Shown here: positions 47,601-62,600 of the stretch, piece after piece
Numbering within the stretch: the first letter of the stretch is position 1
Layout: each line of letters starts with the position of its first letter
NCBI RefSeq assembly: GCF_949628265.1
Contig: NC_088787.1
Location: 30,866,501 to 30,930,500, forward strand
From: Cloeon dipterum
Lineage: Eukaryota; Arthropoda; Insecta; Ephemeroptera; Baetidae
Direction of reading: 5' to 3'
DNA length: 64,000 nucleotides
Position numbers and translations under genes: made by a program
The notes under the pieces: model-generated
Databases searched by the model: none
What the model saw: the letters and a program-made list of their open reading frames with translations, nothing else
What the model was told of the DNA's origin: nothing

Positions 47601-50600
47601 CCGTTTTTTTATTTTTTGGATGATTAAAAGAACAAAGCCTTAACTGATGACCTGCTTTGTGCGTGTTGCAGAAAGTGAAGAGCCAATCAAAAAGGGCGGC
47701 AGCAAGAGCCACTCGGAACCGGCGTCGACACTCGGCAGCCCGCAGCACTCGGGAGGTCTGCACGGGCTAAAGACCGCGATCGGCCTGCGCCTGCGCGGTC
47801 TCCGCGCCGATCCAAAGCAGCAGAAGCAACCGTCGGACGAGTGCGCGTCGTGCGGCGGCGCGTCCGACTCGTCCAGCTCGGCGGCGGCGCAGCCCGTGTC
47901 GGCACCGCGCTACTCGCGGCTGCCGACCGCCGCGGTGGCGACCAAGTCGCGCGTTGCCAGCGCGCTGCAGTTGCTGCGCAGACACCGAGGCGCCGCCAAG
48001 CTCCTGCGCGAGCGCTCCAAGTCGGACAACAGCCTGCAGCGGCTGTCAGTGGTGCACGGCGCCACCAGCCGCTCCGACCACGCCCTCCAGCGGCTGCTCA
48101 TACGCAACAGCAGTGAGCAGCACGTCTTCCTGCCCCCGGACAGCCCCCCACAGCCGCCAACCCGCGACAAGAAGCCGGCCAAGAGGTCGCGCTCACTCGA
48201 GAGGACCGCCAATTTCAGGTGATTCTTTTTTTATTTTCCTTTTGTAAATTCCCAGTGATTGTGAGTGTTCGAAGCAGCCAATAGATGGTGCCACTGCATA
48301 CTTTCGATTTTAATTTACTTTCGCTGCGATTTCAGACTCGATCCAGCTGCTGTACATTCTGCTTCTAGGATTATATCTAGGGTTGGGAAACTTAGACTGT
48401 TTTTTTGTACAAAATAGTCGACTATTTTTAGACGCTTTTTGCCCTCAAAAAGACTGTTTTTTAGACGGTTTTTGGTGATTTAGACGGTTTTAGACTGTTT
48501 TGAGAAGGCTAATTTCTGGTGCCAATTTCATGCATTTTCAATATTTTTTCAGTTTTTCTTTCTATTATTAAAAATATTGGCCAAGTAATTCACTTAAATA
48601 TTACCAAAGTTTCTTGGAAAAAGCGGGAAAATGTTACTTATACAAATAATTTTTATTATTTTTGTAATACAAATGACACCACCGACGACACATCTAATAG
48701 AGCCCTGCACGGGTGTAAGAGTGCGGGTTTAAACCCGCGGTTATCTGCACCGCGTAGATGGTTGGTTTAATTTAATTTTGTCGTTTCTGGTGGGTGCGGT
48801 GCGGTTGCGGGTATGCACTAAAAACCATGAAATATTTTGTGCAGCCGCCAACAGATGGCGCCACCGTATACTTTCAATTTTAATGCACTTGCAGACTTAA
48901 TCCTATCACTGTGCATTTTTCACTTAATTTTCTTTCTTTTGACGTGCTGAAAACCAATATCGGTTAAGCCAATCGGTGTAGAATTGTGAAAAACTATTTT
49001 ATAAATTTAAAATATTTTCCGACGCTTCTACGGCGAATAGCTAGACTGATTTTGGTTTTTAGCACGTCAAAAGAAAATAAATTAAGTGAAGAATGCAGGA
49101 TTGAGTCTGAAATCGCAGCGGAAGTTCCTTAAAATTAAATTTATTAAGAAAGTATACGGTGGCGACATCTGGCGGCGGCTTCGAACACTAAAAGGGATTA
49201 ATGCAACTGGTGAGTAGCAAAATTTATAATATGAAGATTCGGGGCTTCGGTAATGCGGTTGCGGGTTTTTGGAACACACGTCACCGCGGGTGCGGGTTAA
49301 AATTTAGAATTCCGTGGTTGGGTGAGGGTGAAAAAAATCCACCCGTGCAGAGATCGCTCTGGGAGCCTAGATAATCGCGGCAAATCAACGTTGCATTCTG
49401 TTATGTTATAAAATAAGAGAATTTCCCCAGCAAACGGCTAATTTTGGGGTATTTTAGACGGTTTTAGACTGTTTTAGGCGGGTTTAGACGATTTTTGGCA
49501 ATTTAGACGGTTTTAGACGATTTTTGGCAATTTAGACGGTTTTAGACGATTTTAAGTGGGTGTGGGACGATTGCGTCATCATTTTTCATGATTCGTGAAG
49601 ATTTCATGTTTTTGGAAAGAAATAGAGCACAGAAAAAAATAGTCGATCGTCTAAGTTTCCCAACCCTAAATTATATCTTTAGACGTGCTGAAAACAAAAT
49701 CAGCCAGCCATTCGCCGTAGAAACGTTAGGAAAAACATTTAATTTTACCAGAACTTGAAATAAATTTGAAATGGCCCAAATTAAGCTTGATTTAATAACA
49801 ACTAACTTCAAATTGGTCTTAAAACAAAAATTCGAACACCCTTGAACACGTGCCGTCAAGAGAAATAACAGTAGTTACTATTCTGTCGACCCCTAAGGCT
49901 TTGGTCATTATAATACAATTTTCGCCCTGCGGGCGATGGACCGCCGCGACGGCGGGCGCGCGCACCGAAAGGCGAATCGAGCGCTCCTGCGCGGCACCGT
50001 GTAACGCTGCACCTCTGCGCGCCGCCGCGCAAAATCGTCGAAAGGCAAATCGAGCGCCTCCGCAGCGCGACGTATAGCGGCACCTCGGCGCTGCCGCGCA
50101 AAATCGTCAAAATGTAAATCCTGCGCCTCCGCAAGTCCGCAGCGCAGCGTGCAACTGCACCTCCGCGCTATCGCGCAAAATCGTAAAAATGCAGATCGAG
50201 CGCCTCCGCAGCGCAGCGTACAACCGCTCGCGCAAAATCGTCGGAACCGAGTGTGCGCCTCCGCACCACGACCAAAAGCACCGCCGCTTCTCGCTCGCTT
50301 CGAAAAGCGATTCGCGCGGCGCCAAACCGCACACTGCGGGAAATCTCGCTCCGCAGGCTTGGCAAAATAAAAAAAATCAAAAGTGCGGCTCCACACCGCC
50401 AAAGTATCACGATATTCGCGAAAGAAACGAAAAAGTCGCGTAAATCCGATTCTCAGGTAAATCGACCTGAGGAAGGTCGGTTGCGGCGGGGGTCGAAAAT
50501 CAAGTCAAAGTGCGGCCAATTGAGGCGGAAAGTGCGAAAAATGCCTCAAAAAACGGCCTCCGGAGGGAACTCAGTTCGGGCGACCCTGAAAAAGGTCGTC

Positions 50601-53600
50601 AGGGAAGTGCCTATGAAAGTAGAAGTTATTGTCTGTCCAACGAGGGGTCGCGGTCGAAGGTAGCACGCGCGGTCGATTTTTGCGAATTAAAAACCGTTCT
50701 TGGCCTCTCAGCTTTGTCGGAAATGAAGGAAAAAACCCGAAAATCGGCGATTTTAACTTTTCTATGGGCCCGAAAAACCTGAAATTCGGGTCGGTCATCG
50801 AGGATGGTCAGATGCGTCGGGCAGATACCGTGGCTAAAGATTATGGGCCTTTGTTTTCCTAGAAACGCGAAAAATCCAGTTTCCCATGTATTTCTTACGG
50901 GACAAAGTGAAAAACCACGTTTTTTCACCTTCATACCTATAGGTTTTTGCGAATTTTGCTCCGATCGCGCTTTTTTCGGTCTCTACGGATAGCCAGATAA
51001 AAATCGCAAAATCGGCACCGTACAGAATTTCGATTCGTCTCCCTAGTCGAAAGATTCGGCGTCCGAAAGTGGCGACATGTCGAAAAAACACGAATTTTCC
51101 TTCACCGCGCAGCGAAATTTTATGGTTGAATTAGGCTGGCACTCGCACAAAATGAACTTCACCTCATACCTAGGTGAGATGGCTAGGCGACATATCCAGG
51201 TCAAATCGGCCTAGTTGCGAAAAAATTTTTTGAAAATTTGGACTTTTTTCGGCCAAAATGGCGCCGCGGACTAAAAGATGGTCGAATTTTGAAAAACTCG
51301 GCGTCGGCAGACCGGCGGCGTCGAGGCCGAATTTTTGACGCCGAAAAATCCGCGATCGGCCCCATACAACCCCCGCCCGTCCTAAAAAACCACCAGTGTC
51401 CCGGCGCGCGATGTTTCGCCTTTAAAAATTCATAACTCCGGCCCCGTTCGTGCTACATGGCGTAACCGGTGATCAGTAAACTCGCCGCAAAATTCTGCGT
51501 CGGATTCGCCCTTTTTCCGCCCCGCCCTCCCAAAACCCCCTAAAAACAGGTCAAAAGTTTACATTTTTTTTTAAATTGCCCTATGGCGGCTGCGGCGGTT
51601 CCGCCCCGCGGAACCACGTTCCGGCGGCGCCGCCTTAGTACGAACCGAATTTGGCGCCGATGGGCGCCGATTCGGCGATTTTTTTACCCGCGAGCATAGG
51701 GACACCGCATGCTCGCGGGGCCGCCGCGGGGCTCCTAAGGGCTCGCGGGCTTAACCGTCGGGCCTCCCCAAGTTTCTCCCGGTACCGCAACTTTGCGATT
51801 ATTCTCGCCTTCGCCCCCGGAGCGCACCGTTCCCGCGGGTTCGCGCCTTCGGCGCTCAAATCTTTCGCCGCGCGCCCCGTATTATAGGTGTATGAACAAG
51901 TGGCTTAGCAGCCACTTGGCGCTGCGCGCGCCGCCCTGCGGGCGCTGGACCGACGAGACGATGGTGCCAAGAACTGTTGTGCTGTTCCACTGTCGTCGGC
52001 AAACCAAGTTCAATCGGTGTCAAAGTTTTCAGATGTGATTTTCATTTCCTCAGGTATTCCAGGTACGAAATGTTATTTTCCCATTGCTATTTTTTGGAGA
52101 AGTCAATTTGCTGTTCAATGCTGAGTTAAGAAAACGTCGTCGGTGAAGAAAAATCATTCAGTGCCAGAGCTTCAGTTGTGATTATTACTTTATCCATTCA
52201 TTTCAGGTTGGAAACAATAATATCCTATGCATTTTTATGAGAAATGGACTATTTTCCTTAGTTGAGGTTTCAAATTGACGCAGAGAAATGAAACCAAGTG
52301 CTTGAGTGAAATGAGTATTTATTTATTAAAAGCGGATTTTTATCAATGTAATTGGAGATAGATTTATTAAAAATTCAAATTATGTGAATGTTAAATGTGA
52401 GACTTAATTGGAAAAACAACAGGTGCGATGAGTAGTTGTAAATCGTTTGAATTTTAAGGCATAGTAAGCGTGTCAGAATTATGCGAAGCAAAGAACATAA
52501 AAGGCAATGTACATGCAGCCTGGGTAATCATGACACAATTTTGATTGAATAGTTTTCAGTTTTGTAGCAGAAATGCAATCGAATTTCAGAAAGAGCCAGA
52601 CTGAGCGGTTTCAAGAAAACATATCAAACTTTTCATATTTCTTCACAAATCCAAAACCAAATTTTCGATGCAAATTACCAAGTAGACTTCAAAATCATAA
52701 GTTACAACCCGAGTTCATTTTAATAGTCAGGCACATGCAGCAAGAGACAATCATAAGTAAATTATAAGGAGAAAACGAAAAAAACACCTCGGGCGAAAGC
52801 ATAGAAAAGAAATTCCTAGAGTCCCGTGCGCAAAGTCATTCACTAAATTCACAACAGATCACTTATCTTGGCAAAGTGTCGCCGCAGTCTCTCGAGGTCT
52901 GACTGAGCCACTTGAGTCAGCACTTCGGACGGCTTCGGTGCCGCCTGGTGACTCAGGGTCGTTTTTGTCGCTGTCTTCGTCGACGTCCATCGGGACAGCA
53001 AAAAACCGTGTGTAGAGCTCGTAATCAAGTTGTGCCGGTGGCAGGTTGAATTGGGTTTGCCGTTTTGGTGGGGGCGGGTCCTGAAAGAAATAATGAAGTC
53101 AAAGTCGGCACGAAAAATGGCGATTAAATTTCAATTCAAAGTTACCTTGAGTGGTGAGACGGCGACACGGGCGGACCTCTTTTGTCCGATGCCGGACCCA
53201 CCAGCTTCCCTCTCGTCGCGGGTAGATGGAGTGCAGAACCAGTTCTGTACTCTCGGGTAGAGTCTAGCGTGGGCCTCCTCGGCTGCTGTGGTGTTCAAGA
53301 AGTAGGATGGTCGGGCAGTGGGTACGTCCGGCATCGCCGAGTCTTCGGCGAAGTCGGCCGCGTCGAAGTTGTCTCTCCAGGTTGCCTCTCCCGTTTGCTG
53401 TGGAGGCGGCGCCGCGACCTGTTGTCCACTTACCTCGTCCTGCTGGTGGAAGTCGGGGGTGTTTGGCCGGCCGTGGACCTGCATCGCTGCCATGGTGTTC
53501 AGAAGATTTGCTTCCTCAAGCTCTTCTTCGGTCATCGGAGCCCAGAAGTCGCGAGGCTCAGTTGGCTCCGGCGGCTCTGGCTCAGCGATGTGTTCGTCGA

Positions 53601-56600
53601 AGAGCAGTTCGTTCAAGACGTCGTCGCCGAAGAGCCGCCTTCTGAGGCGAGTGTTTGGCGAGCCTGGCGGAGAATCTCGCACGATTCCAAGTTGACGTTC
53701 GCGCTAAAAAAGAAAAGGAAAAGCATGCACATATATACACACAGGTCATGAAATTTATGTGGTTGTTGTAAAAAGTTCAAGTCTTATTTTGATAATGAAA
53801 TTTTTTCAGGCTTATCGTGTTTAATTCTTCCAATTCCAGGTAAATCTATACTCATCTTTCATTTCAGGTTCGATCAAAAACTCACGTCGATCATCTCCTG
53901 CAGGAGCTGCGCCGTCTGCCACTCACGCTCAGGCTGGTCGTCGTAGTTGTCCTCGTCGGAAAGCTCGTCCTCTTCGATCTGCGCGTCGTCAGGTTGGTTG
54001 TCGTTGTCGGCCTCCTGGCCAAAGTCGTCGGGGTCGGTGTCGTGGCCGTCGTCCTGCGCCACTGGCCCGATAACGAAGTTGTCCTATGGGGGAAGAAGAG
54101 CAGATCGAGTTAATTTTGAATTTACAGCGAAAACTTACGTGGCCAGTGAACGTCAGAACAGGCGGTGGCGGCGGTGTTCGCACCACCCTGGGCTGAGGCC
54201 GCGGACCGCCCAAGTCCCAGAGGGATCGTCGCACGGGGTTGTGGGTAAACCAGACGCCAAGATCAGTGTGGAAGCCCTGGCGATCGTCGGGGACGATGAC
54301 CATTCGGACATCCTCCTGGTGGCGTACTCTGCTCAGGGAAACGTACAATTTCCCATGATCGGAGAGGTAGCGCCGCAGGTACACGCCGACCTGGAATTAA
54401 AAAAGCGCAAAGTGTAAACGTACAACTGCGAATAGAACAAACTCACCTTGCGCAAAGTCAAACCTTGCGCTTTGTTGATGGTCATGGCGTATGCAATTCT
54501 GATGGGAAATTGCACACGTTGCATCTTGATCACCGGTCCGATGTCAGCGACAAAGGCAATTCTAGGGAGGTCGATCACCTTGCCTCTGATCTTGTCCTTG
54601 CCAGTCAGCACTTTAACGCGGATCTTGTTGCGCGAGAAGTCCTCGATCCGGACGCGCGTTCCGTTGACGATTCCGGCGGGAATATCGAGGTTCCGGATGA
54701 GAATTGCAATCGCGCCCTTTCTCACCAGGAGCTCGTGGTAGGGCACGCCCGACGGGTTCATGTCGTGAAGCTCCTCCGGCTCGAACATCCTCCGATTTTC
54801 TGGTACGCCGGCTCCGTTGTCGACGATCGGGTTAGCCGGATCGTCATCGAGGACTGTGTCTTCAGAGAGAAGAGCGCCGATCTCACCGGGACCTTTCATC
54901 TTTAGGAGGACCTGCGAACAAAGGTAAGTGTAGAAATGCGTAAATTTTTTTAATAATTTTCCCTTTTCAGCCAAGCCAAATTAGAGTGTCGTTTGCGATT
55001 CAGCTCACTCGGTTGTTAATTTTGCGGCAGTCTTCGTTGAGCTGCGTCAGGATGGTGCTGTCCGCACACTCTGTGGAAGGGTCCGCACCGAAGACCCACT
55101 CGATCAAGCTGTCCAGGCTGTTGTCACCGACCACCCACCTATCAGGAACCACGAAGGACTGCGGCGGCAGTTCAGGCGGAGACTCGTGCGTTCCCTCGCC
55201 GATGGTTTTGAGCAGGTCGGCGAAGTCGCGCTCGTCGGCGTTGGCCCGCATGTTTTCTCGCAAGTGCAACAGCCGGCACTGTTGCAGCAGGTCGGAGTGC
55301 CGAAAATGGATCTCATCCAAGACCTCGCCGGGGCCGCAGATGGGACTCAACTGGCGAAGGTCTCCACCGAAGAGAACAGGGCACCCGGCAAATGGAGAGA
55401 GCGACTCGGGATCTTTCGCCTGGACGAACAGCTTGTCAGCCACCTCGTACGCTGTGTTGGGAGCCATGCTGACCTCGTCGATGACAACCAAACTGGTCTC
55501 TTGGATTCTTTTGTAGCTGCGGAGAGGAAAAGATAGGAACATATATAAATCCAAAGAAAACGCATTCTCAGGCAAAAAAACTAACGCGGGAAACTGCGGC
55601 TGGAGTCTGGACTCTGAATCCTTCGTCAGAGGAACCGGAAGGCCCAAAGCTGAATGCAGCGTCGTCCCGCTCGCCGGATTTCCCCCGGGGCCTCCCTAGG
55701 TTTCCCCCGGAGGCGCACCGTTCCCGCGGGGTGGCGCCTTCGGCGCTTCCAAAAACGTCCACACGCCCCGTATTATAGGTTGTTAAAAAGGCTAAAATTT
55801 ATAGTTTTAATATTTCCATCTTGTGTAGGACACATAAAATTAGGCAAAAACATCAAAATCGGGAATATAATTTTGTATGTTTATTGAAAAATAAAAACCA
55901 CATCTTGGCTTTTCAAAAAATGTTTACACGCACCCAAATCTCAGCTTATTTAGTTTACGGTACAGAAATTGAAGCTCCTCCATTCCTATCCATGCATTTA
56001 CAAATTAGTCACGCAAGTAGCAAAATTTAAATAAAAATAATGAAAAATAAACGGTATACAAACATTTCGTAATGTTCGTGTCGTAAGTAAATTAAATTGT
56101 GCGTGTTTCGCTACAAAGAAGCCCTTTAATCGAGAAAATCATCGTAATTATGGAATTGGTTAGCATAAACAAAGGGTTTGAGCTGTTTCTCGAACTCCTT
56201 CATGCTACGGCACACCCCGAATCTGCGCTGGAAGTTGTTTTTATAAAAATTGAGCATGAAAATCTGTGGATTCCGAGAAGCCGCCGCCGACTCGAGGGGC
56301 AACAAAATAATCATCCGTGGAGTGAGTGTTATGCCCCTAATTAGCTGGAAGTAGTGATTATGACGGTGTGTGTGGTAATAATAACTAATGGAATATTAAT
56401 GCTGAGAATTTCTTTCTAATGTGTTACTTTTTTTATCTTTTACACCTCTTTTATAATATACACTTTATATTTTCCCTAAATTTACAGCGCTTAACCATAA
56501 TTTTTTCTTGGCAGATTTCGATTCTATTGTTGTCCGGGAAATCAAATAAGCTTTGTAGTTGTTAGACGGTCTTCATCATTTAAAACGCATACAAATATTG

Positions 56601-59600: not shown

Positions 59601-62600
59601 AAATATCAATCAATCACTTTATTTAACACAAGTTGTGTACAACAGATTTTATAATAATAATAATTTGGGTCAGTCATTTAGCTGGTAATTTTGCTGCTTG
59701 AGTCAAACTAATATAATATTAAATATAACATCATATTTGCGTTTCTATTGGTCAGGAACGTATTAAATTGCACTTTTTAACGTATTTAAATTTCAACATG
59801 CAGGGTGATGTCAGGGTCGGGCCCTGAGGGTAAAATCTCGCTTATTTTGGTAACTCTAATAGTTTGAACCTGAAAAATACCCCGAATTTTTTTTTGAAAA
59901 CTTGGCTTAAGTTAGAAAGTCGAAATATCAAGTGGAAATGAGAAACACAACAAGGTTTTCAGGGGGTAACTCCCACCCCTTTTCATCCCTAATCCACCCC
60001 TAGCCATGTTAGAATTATTTCAATTTCTAGCACCTTGAATGTTTGAATTAATAGTTTTACACTTATAAACACCCTCCCTCGTCAACCCCTAACTCACCCC
60101 TTGAAAAATGGGTGGTGTTTTAAGTGTCGATCTTTGTATTTTTGCGCACCAGGAACTCCAATCCGCGGCGTTGAATTTTGTGTATTTTCTTCGTGCATAA
60201 TTTGAATGATGCTTTGGCATTCGACTTGGATTTGGGCTGAAAAAGAATATTATTAAATTTGCAGACCGTGCGTGGGGATGGCGATGCGGCAGCCAAAGCA
60301 GATGAGCCTGTGGCTGGAGTCGCCGGCCACCTCCGACCTGGAGTACTACAACGACCTGCCGGGCAAAGTGCCTCCGGACGTTGGCCCGCCGCCGGTGCCG
60401 CCCCTGCCGCAGTACCATGCGCCCTCGGTGCCGCCTCCTCTGCAGCAGCAGCAGCCGTCGCACGGTATTCCTCCTCCTCCGCCGCCGCCGCCTCCGAGCG
60501 AAAACGCGCCGCACCCGCCCAGGGGCAGCACCAGCAGCAACCTGATCGACCTGCACTCGGAGTTGTCGCCCGTGCACAAGAAGAGCTGGGAGCACGACTA
60601 CGTCAACCACGACGTCGCCGACAAGTTGGAAAACGGCAACGACGTCTTTGACATGCGTAACTATCCTTTTTGTTCACTCTCTTCGCAGTTGACGCCAAAA
60701 TTAGTGGACAACACCTTTTGTACAAAGCAGTCAAGGAGAAATTTAAGATTTTACATGGGAAATAATTTCTTTGCTTGCTGGGATTTATCAGAAAATTATT
60801 GTTTTTTTCAGGTTTTATATTATCTTTTAGCAATTGTTAGTATCTGAAAGTAATTCAGAGTTACGTATTGTTTCTTCCCTGCCTACTCATTATAGCACGG
60901 GATTGCAAAGGCCAAAAATTTTGTGTGCTTTTCGGGACGCCCTTTGCAGGGCAGTGGTCGGGTACCGAGTTGTCCTTTGAGCCGAAAAAATTTATAAATC
61001 CAGCCCATAGGGGCCCCTTGACCAAACCCCTTCCCTATCTTCCTGTGGAAAAAATCGACAAATTGTTCGAATACTTTCGCAAAACTCGAGCAATCGACGC
61101 GTTTTGTCACAGAGAGGCGTAATTTCAAGTCGAAATCAAACTTGGACAGCAGTAAGTAAGTTTAAAAAAATTAAATCAATCAATTTAAAATTGCGCAGAT
61201 TTTGGGGGCGTTGGCGGGGGCAGGCGGTGGCGGCTATCGGATCCAAAACACTCAGTATTTCACAGCGAGTCTGAAAAAGTTCGGTTTGCCACTCTACGGC
61301 CCATAGCAGCCGAGTTAATTTTAAAGTCGAAAATACGCGATTTTTTGTCGGCCCCTATGGGCCGGACGGTGCTGATTTGAGTACCAATCGATTCCCCTTG
61401 GTAAAGGAGCGTCCGCCCGTGTGCGGCTTTCTAAAATCGGACCATATTTCGAATTTTACTGCTGAATTTTCGAAAGAGTCCAATTTTTAATAACCGCCGC
61501 CCTTGTTAATATTTTAGTATTTAGGTCAAATTCACCGCCTCGACAGACAGTGTTGCCGAAAGCGCCCGTCTGGAGGCCCAAGGGGCGCTAACCTCTTGTT
61601 CAATTAAAATATTATCTTGTAAAAAAAGCTTGTGATTTATTCAGACTATGATATAATCCTAATTGTGAGATGTTTCTGTATTTAGAACCGTTTTCGACAA
61701 CCCTGACGGCCGGCGCCACCAGCCTAGCACTGCAAAGGCAGCAGCTCGAGCGTGAACCCTGGTTCCACGGGCCTATCAGCAGGAAGGAGGCGGAGAGCAT
61801 TCTTAAAAATGTAACTATTTAATATACATTAACAGATGACATAAGAATATTGACATTTTTGTAAATTTGCCAGGATGGGGATTTTTTGGTGAGGGAATCG
61901 CAAGGCTCGCCTGGCCAATATGTACTGACTGGACTTCAAGGTGGCGTCAAGAAACACTTACTACTAGTTGACCCAGAAGGGGTGGTAAGAACAAAATAAT
62001 TTAATGAACTAATCTAGTGATTAGCTTTTTTCATACTGTGCCTAAAATAAGACTTTAAGAAAATGGAAATAATATATTTTTATGGATTTAGTTAAGTCAA
62101 AATAGCCTGCTTAAATTGCTACCGAGTTGAATATAAATTTTAAAAGTTAATACATGGATTTAAATTTTTCTGCTGGATTTTTTTGCTGTGCACTTAAATA
62201 CGATCAGATCAAATTTAATTCAAACTTCAGTTAAATTTTTGTATATGCTCCTATTTTGATCCGCAGCCCTGTTAAACAAAACACCGATAAAAAAGACAAA
62301 TGGATAAAAAATTAAAGGACATATGTATTGATGACGTAAAACTAAAATTTTTAATGAAAATCATAGCTCGGTCAAATTTTTTTGGAACCGTTCTCAGCGT
62401 TTAGCAGTCAAGCGCTAGAGCTAGACAAAGAGCGGCCATACTGTGACGTCATCAGTGTCATAGCCGCGGTGTTCAGAACACACCGCCGATTACTAGTTGG
62501 TTTAAAAAGCTATAGGACCAAAGCTGCGTACTTGGAGACTGATTCCAAAATTCCTCTTAATAATACAGAAACTAAACACGAAACTAAAAAATAAATTTAA

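Follow-up and report, generated by a model that had tools for sequence, protein, structure and literature searches.

How a transposon-type helicase fragment that lacks its P-loop can remain open across seven exons is the question raised by a locus on the minus strand of a 64,000-nucleotide stretch of the mayfly Cloeon dipterum genome. The stretch, hereafter the window, is C2:30866501-30930500 (NC_088787.1) of an assembly of 190 Mb in 10 contigs; a published 180-Mb assembly of the species is reported to contain about 5% transposable elements (PMC7250882). The first-pass annotation of this DNA proposed that the helicase was either a very recent capture or a protein with a new role that is being maintained. 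Our analysis agrees with a recent event better than with a maintained protein and favours deletion over capture. With a probability of roughly three in four, the helicase lies in an internally deleted, non-autonomous copy of Helentron/HINE type with no host role, here called element A. The features of the locus are as follows, with percentages for exons referring to a related gene on contig C1 that is described below.

51897..55784, minus strand (C2:30918397-30922284): element A, 3.9 kb long, probably an internally deleted Helentron-type element (ends, exons, family comparison)
55672..55784, minus strand: 5' terminal region of element A, GC-rich, truncated at the helicase (aligns to 10 family copies)
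55586..55671, minus strand: exon 1, helicase motif Ia, its 5' side broken at the element-end junction (exon join; 81% to the C1 P-loop exon)
55009..55516, minus strand: exon 2, motifs II (DEVSM), III (GGDLRQL) and IV (Pfam, alignment; 67% amino acid identity to the C1 relative)
54447..54911, minus strand: exon 3, Pif1 2B domain and motif V (INKAQG) (63% to C1; 465 bp as in C1)
54139..54390, minus strand: exon 4, motif VI (YVSLSRVR) and start of the tail (64% to C1)
53886..54083, minus strand: exon 5, acidic part of the tail; the acidic exon of C1 is its homologue (34-37%)
53146..53703, minus strand: exon 6, acidic/Pro-rich stretch of the tail, with a homologue among the C1 tail exons (23-26%)
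52859..53080, minus strand: exon 7 and stop codon (starts DPPPPKR against DNPPPPKR in the C1 exon, by eye)
51897..51918, minus strand: 3' terminal hairpin of element A, CAAGTGGCTGCTAAGCCACTTG, then TT (end comparison, pattern searches, folding)
49920..51894, minus strand: element B, of the same family, non-coding, in tandem downstream (low end approximate)

Joined in frame, the seven exons (minus strand, 55671-52859) yield 762 codons in which the sole stop is the terminal one, and all six introns are GT-AG (69, 97, 56, 55, 182 and 65 bp), the first in phase 2 and the other five in phase 0 as calculated from the exon lengths. The seven exons, six introns and more than 730 open codons of the first-pass annotation are borne out by this reconstruction. 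Pfam matches on exons 2-7 were above cut-off for PIF1 (E 3.9e-16, profile positions 98-219 of 223) and Pif1_2B (E 2.2e-8) and below it for Herpes_Helicase (21.3 bits). The absence of the Walker A motif, or P-loop, that had been noted is evident both from the Pfam profile and from the C1 P-loop exon, to which 55671-55594 aligns at 81% from motif Ia on only. The helicase had been described as running from Walker B onward, and its start is placed slightly earlier here, at the motif Ia of exon 1. The in-frame stop reported directly upstream is also present: the open frame starts immediately 3' of it, at 55695, and no in-frame ATG occurs until codon 46, where motif II ends.

The missing parts of the gene do not lie elsewhere in the window. 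Thirteen pieces of the C1 gene, among them the Rep and P-loop exons, were searched against it, and fragments hel0, hel1, hel2, hel3, t4 and t5 matched at E < 0.01 with every match inside the helicase locus, while the Rep fragments had no window match at this threshold. The Rep domain family PF14214 (Helitron_like_N) was also not found near the window among the 17 matches listed, the nearest being at C2 36.38 Mb. Both the Rep (HUH) domain and the P-loop PIF1 helicase that define an autonomous Helitron or Helentron are lacking in the window. We also considered, and rejected, a complete gene that a repeat had interrupted, since no Rep or P-loop exon occurs elsewhere in the window and neither PF14214 nor a further PF05970 lies nearby among the listed matches.

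The helicase is broken where it meets a transposon end. A 113-bp GC-rich repeat, preceded by a T run, meets motif Ia directly at 55671/55672, and the 5' end of element A, as read here, begins AACAACCTATAATACGGGGCG after TTTTT. This 5' region aligns to 10 copies of a dispersed family at 70-80% over 56-121 bp. The same GC-rich repeat restarts in the same orientation at 51894, right after the hairpin and TT, and opens element B, which has no recognised coding sequence and for which genome-wide pattern searches yielded no 3' hairpin. Counts from the genome searches are lower bounds throughout. Sixteen further loci match the dispersed repeat at E <= 4.0e-20, the window itself and weaker matches being excluded, and pattern searches for the hairpin returned 25 sites including that of the window (11 + 14), compared with 2 and 0 for reversed-pattern controls. 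A hairpin site lies no more than 6 kb downstream on the same strand at 10 of the 16 repeat loci, and because of this pairing we regard the repeat and the hairpin as the 5' and 3' ends of one mobile family. The 70-nt end that contains the hairpin has a folding z of -2.82, with one of 200 shuffles as stable. TT precedes the 5' start in nine of 12 other copies (loci L010-L017 and L020; not L021, L026 or L027), a count from which elements A and B were left out because their own starts had been placed after TT, and TT follows the hairpin in six of seven copies (element A, L011, L014, L017, L020 and L044), with a single T in L045.

These ends allow the element to be placed among known classes. Canonical Helitrons (Helitron1) have 5' TC, 3' CTRR, a hairpin 10-12 nt inside the end and an A/T target. 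Element A was not assigned to them, as the copies have no common CTRR and lose similarity immediately past the hairpin, and a 5' TC is readable in copies beginning TTCACCT and not in element A. Published accounts of Helentrons, Helitron2 and HINEs report insertion at T-rich or TT targets, a palindrome on the 3' side and frequent formation of deletion derivatives (PMC4067079, PMC5148889). Element A has a palindrome near its 3' terminus (51918-51897) and a T-rich or TT insertion site, and in these respects resembles Helentron/Helitron2 and the derivatives HINE and DINE-1 as presented there. It also resembles Helentron/Helitron2 in carrying a PIF1-type helicase gene in element orientation and in belonging with non-autonomous deletion derivatives, to which Helentrons are reported to give rise often (PMC4067079, PMC5148889). 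What sets element A apart from Helentron derivatives is that about 760 codons of its helicase and tail are still open.

The architecture of the interrupted gene is that of a complete RepHel gene elsewhere in the assembly. Matches to Rep and to the P-loop portion of PIF1 occur together at six places on C1, C7 and C10 among the matches listed, and the gene at C1:3.44 Mb (L029/L030) is a full RepHel with Rep, P-loop exon, helicase and acidic tail. All six intron positions are common to this gene and the window helicase; two exons have equal lengths (508 and 465 bp), a third measures 252 bp in the window against 249 bp, the helicase exons are 63-67% identical, and 275 of 410 core residues agree. 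The exon borders of the C1 acidic tail likewise match those of the window tail, at 23-37% identity; the tail evolves fast. The C-terminal tail, which had been singled out as non-standard, is therefore normal for the family, and its origin as a new acquisition was rejected on account of the same homologous exons. Both the tail and the introns of element A are inherited from the transposase family. The C1/C7/C10 family differs from the window helicase in possessing Rep and P-loop, in its 63-67% level of identity, and in its ends: the C1 and C10 loci examined match neither the hairpin nor the 5' end patterns. More broadly, none of the 15 loci L029-L043 matched the 5' end patterns, and the hairpin pattern was absent from L037 and from the C1, C5, C10 and C2:37.0 Mb loci. 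A loose hairpin pattern allowing 3 mismatches also matched L038, L039 and L040 (C2:36.40 and 36.51-36.54 Mb) without the neighbouring bases of the family, and these matches are taken as chance. In the C1 relative, whose ends differ, no apurinic/apyrimidinic endonuclease match was found in the 11 fragments scanned (5 + 6).

The C1 relatives form a family with a history of their own. Two C10 copies differ from C1 at 30 and 33 of 2574 exon bases, with the aligned parts gapless, so that this sister family was active recently. It is also present at C7:0.90 Mb (L029, L030, L041 and L043 being C1, C7 and C10 loci), and contig C10, 89.5 kb long, holds four RepHel copies spaced about 21-27 kb. The C1 copy adjoins 253-bp satellite arrays and the same arrays occur in the C10 stretch L042; the RepHel element and the satellite may have been amplified together. 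Another relative, annotated as 'ATP-dependent DNA helicase PIF1-like' (P0001, C5:1.046 Mb), has a core 57% identical to that of the window (224/394) and differs from it in having a P-loop, an internal duplication, part of the core missing and no long tail. Its duplication (L032) sits around motif Ia, and neighbouring open frames resemble retrotransposon reverse transcriptase by eye. Also by eye, the relative L037 (C2:36.53 Mb) keeps its P-loop, but its second exon is damaged and its tail very short. It lies in a distal part of C2 (36.38-37.06 Mb) that accounts for five of the 17 listed Rep matches and four of the 19 listed PIF1 matches and is possibly a transposon-rich region; one of the latter, at 37.02 Mb, is only distantly similar and may represent a cellular helicase.

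The state of the open frame bears on when the gene was broken. Conservation was compared across 12 rows (the window, C1, P0001 and nine of the other 41 protein matches) at columns where at least nine other rows have a residue. The helicase core of the window departs from columns invariant in the other 11 rows once in 41, compared with 0/40 for C1, 5/44 for the C5 helicase, 2/42 for P0002, 1/41 for P0003, 1/41 for P0004, 0/40 for P0005, 6/46 for P0006, 4/38 for P0007, 4/44 for P0008, 0/40 for P0010 and 2/42 for P0013. Relative-rate comparisons of the window with C1 gave 37 v 40, 21 v 21, 20 v 16, 18 v 18 and 22 v 15 with five outgroups, none of which indicates a significant acceleration of the window. 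With few core departures and no rate excess over C1, selection on this sequence as a working helicase seems to have lasted until recently. Against the C1 paralogue, 0.745 of synonymous sites in the helicase differ, which is saturated, with a nonsynonymous divergence (dN) of 0.26, and the tail has a dN of 0.75 and a synonymous divergence (dS) of 1.49; dN/dS against this paralogue is uninformative. Decay of the exons and splice sites was simulated under assumed, unmeasured indel/substitution ratios of 0.05, 0.12 and 0.2 and an assumed transition/transversion ratio. At an indel ratio of 0.12, the copy came through without a lesion in 5.8% of runs when divergence was 1% and in 0.4% when it was 2%; at 1% divergence the share of lesion-free runs was 15% with a ratio of 0.05 and 1.3% with a ratio of 0.2, and at a divergence of 0.05 none of 1500 runs was lesion-free with any of the three ratios. 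Considering stops alone, 23-26% of runs were stop-free at 2% and about 3% at 5%. Under these assumed rates, element A has undergone no more than about 1-2% of neutral decay.

In the mechanism that we propose, an internal deletion in a Helitron2/Helentron rolling-circle transposon would have removed the sequence from a point close behind the 5' end up to and including the P-loop. This deletion would join the 5' end to motif Ia and leave the rest of the gene, its introns, the 3' region and the hairpin in place. Without Rep and P-loop, element A would neither nick DNA nor hydrolyse ATP, and could move only with RepHel supplied in trans by a relative. Selection for transposition, acting on the gene until not long before the deletion, would account for the open frame, and the clean state of the exons probably reflects the short time available for decay rather than adoption by the mayfly. 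The conserved motifs II-VI are as expected of a recently broken ATPase, and since a protein without a P-loop has little reason to keep motifs for ATP coupling, their retention points to a recently broken transposase rather than to a new role. Several observations weigh against this account. The many near-identical full-length copies that the first-pass annotation had named as evidence against its own proposal were not found, the C1 relative standing at 63-67%, and no copy with near-identical helicase exons appears in the assembly, the next being 64-69% identical in DNA among the best candidates listed; the recent source would thus be missing from the assembly. No intact autonomous element with the ends of element A was seen. 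The count of invariant columns is a weak discriminator, as the 12 rows span 0 to 6 departures with 5/44 for the C5 helicase and 6/46 for a metagenome protein. The terminal branch of element B is about 0.07 (0.069) in a tree of 12 copies, and if element A were older than B, its neutral survival would be very unlikely. The sequence of the A/B border is compatible with either order of insertion; if A landed in the T run before B, there is no conflict with its clean frame.

The failure to find a full-length element combining these ends with a RepHel gene, together with the mismatch of the 5' end patterns to L029-L043 and of the hairpin to the C1, C5, C10, C2:37.0 Mb and L037 loci, would also fit capture, in which a non-autonomous element of the family took up a helicase fragment from a different Helitron and the ends and the gene had different parents. 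We consider this unlikely, because the gene runs in order from 5' end to 3' end and includes the entire 3' part, the stop and the region downstream, as would an element's own transposase. The ends, the exons, the missing parts and the common gene architecture are directly observed; deletion instead of capture, its recency and the lack of a host role are what we infer. The intact 762 codons and 12 splice sites, the lack of a near-identical copy among the best candidates listed and the limit of about 1-2% on neutral survival (at the assumed rates) next to an older element B would also be expected of a P-loop-less helicase-derived protein maintained by the host, made from Met 46 or from an unseen upstream exon. 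Such a protein, the C-terminal half of the helicase with its acidic/Pro-rich tail, would be expressed in mayflies and kept there for a role in DNA binding or as a scaffold, with no ATPase activity. That is quite improbable in view of the transposon end lying directly at the break, a first in-frame start codon that comes only where motif II ends, and a core that retains ATP-coupling motifs needless without a P-loop. Protein database searches (lengths of ~206-1283 residues, one limited to E up to 1e-15) returned no protein from the window locus, and the C5 helicase of the same assembly does have an annotated protein in the database; the negative result speaks weakly against a transcribed gene model. 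Defective transposon copies can act as sources of PIWI-interacting RNA (piRNA) or as inhibitors, and the truncated copy might be an RNA or dominant-negative regulator of related elements. The helicase DNA is only 64-69% identical to related genomic copies, which would be low for targeting by small RNAs, and a regulatory role is hardly to be expected.

The surroundings of element A bear on its placement inside a Shc intron, an earlier claim that is plausible. The plus strand carries PTB pieces at 58.3-59.4 kb that match SHC structures in the PDB; the first of them scores 17.5 bits, below the Pfam cut-off, and an SH2 piece lies at 61871-61960 on the same strand. An exon-like stretch at 47.67-48.22 kb, with no Pfam match, could be a 5' exon of the Shc gene, in which case elements A and B would both be intronic. 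On the minus strand at 49440-49560, beyond element B, 'cgtctaaaac'-like units are repeated (by eye). Rfam gave 0 matches at the gathering threshold, and a bacterial-type promoter scan, not meant for insects, found 3 against 2.8 expected.

In summary, we view element A as an ordinary but instructive Helentron-type deletion derivative whose remaining exons are unusually clean, with a small chance of maintenance. A literature search returned no paper pairing 'Helentron' with 'mayfly', and 'Helitron' and 'Ephemeroptera' do co-occur in papers. Conservation of the fragment in other Cloeon species would instead make it a clear instance of domestication of an ATPase-dead Helitron. As read here, a seemingly paradoxical open helicase fragment is explained without a new gene, and element A may preserve, in its coding sequence, a trace of what drove a dispersed Helentron-like repeat family in this mayfly.

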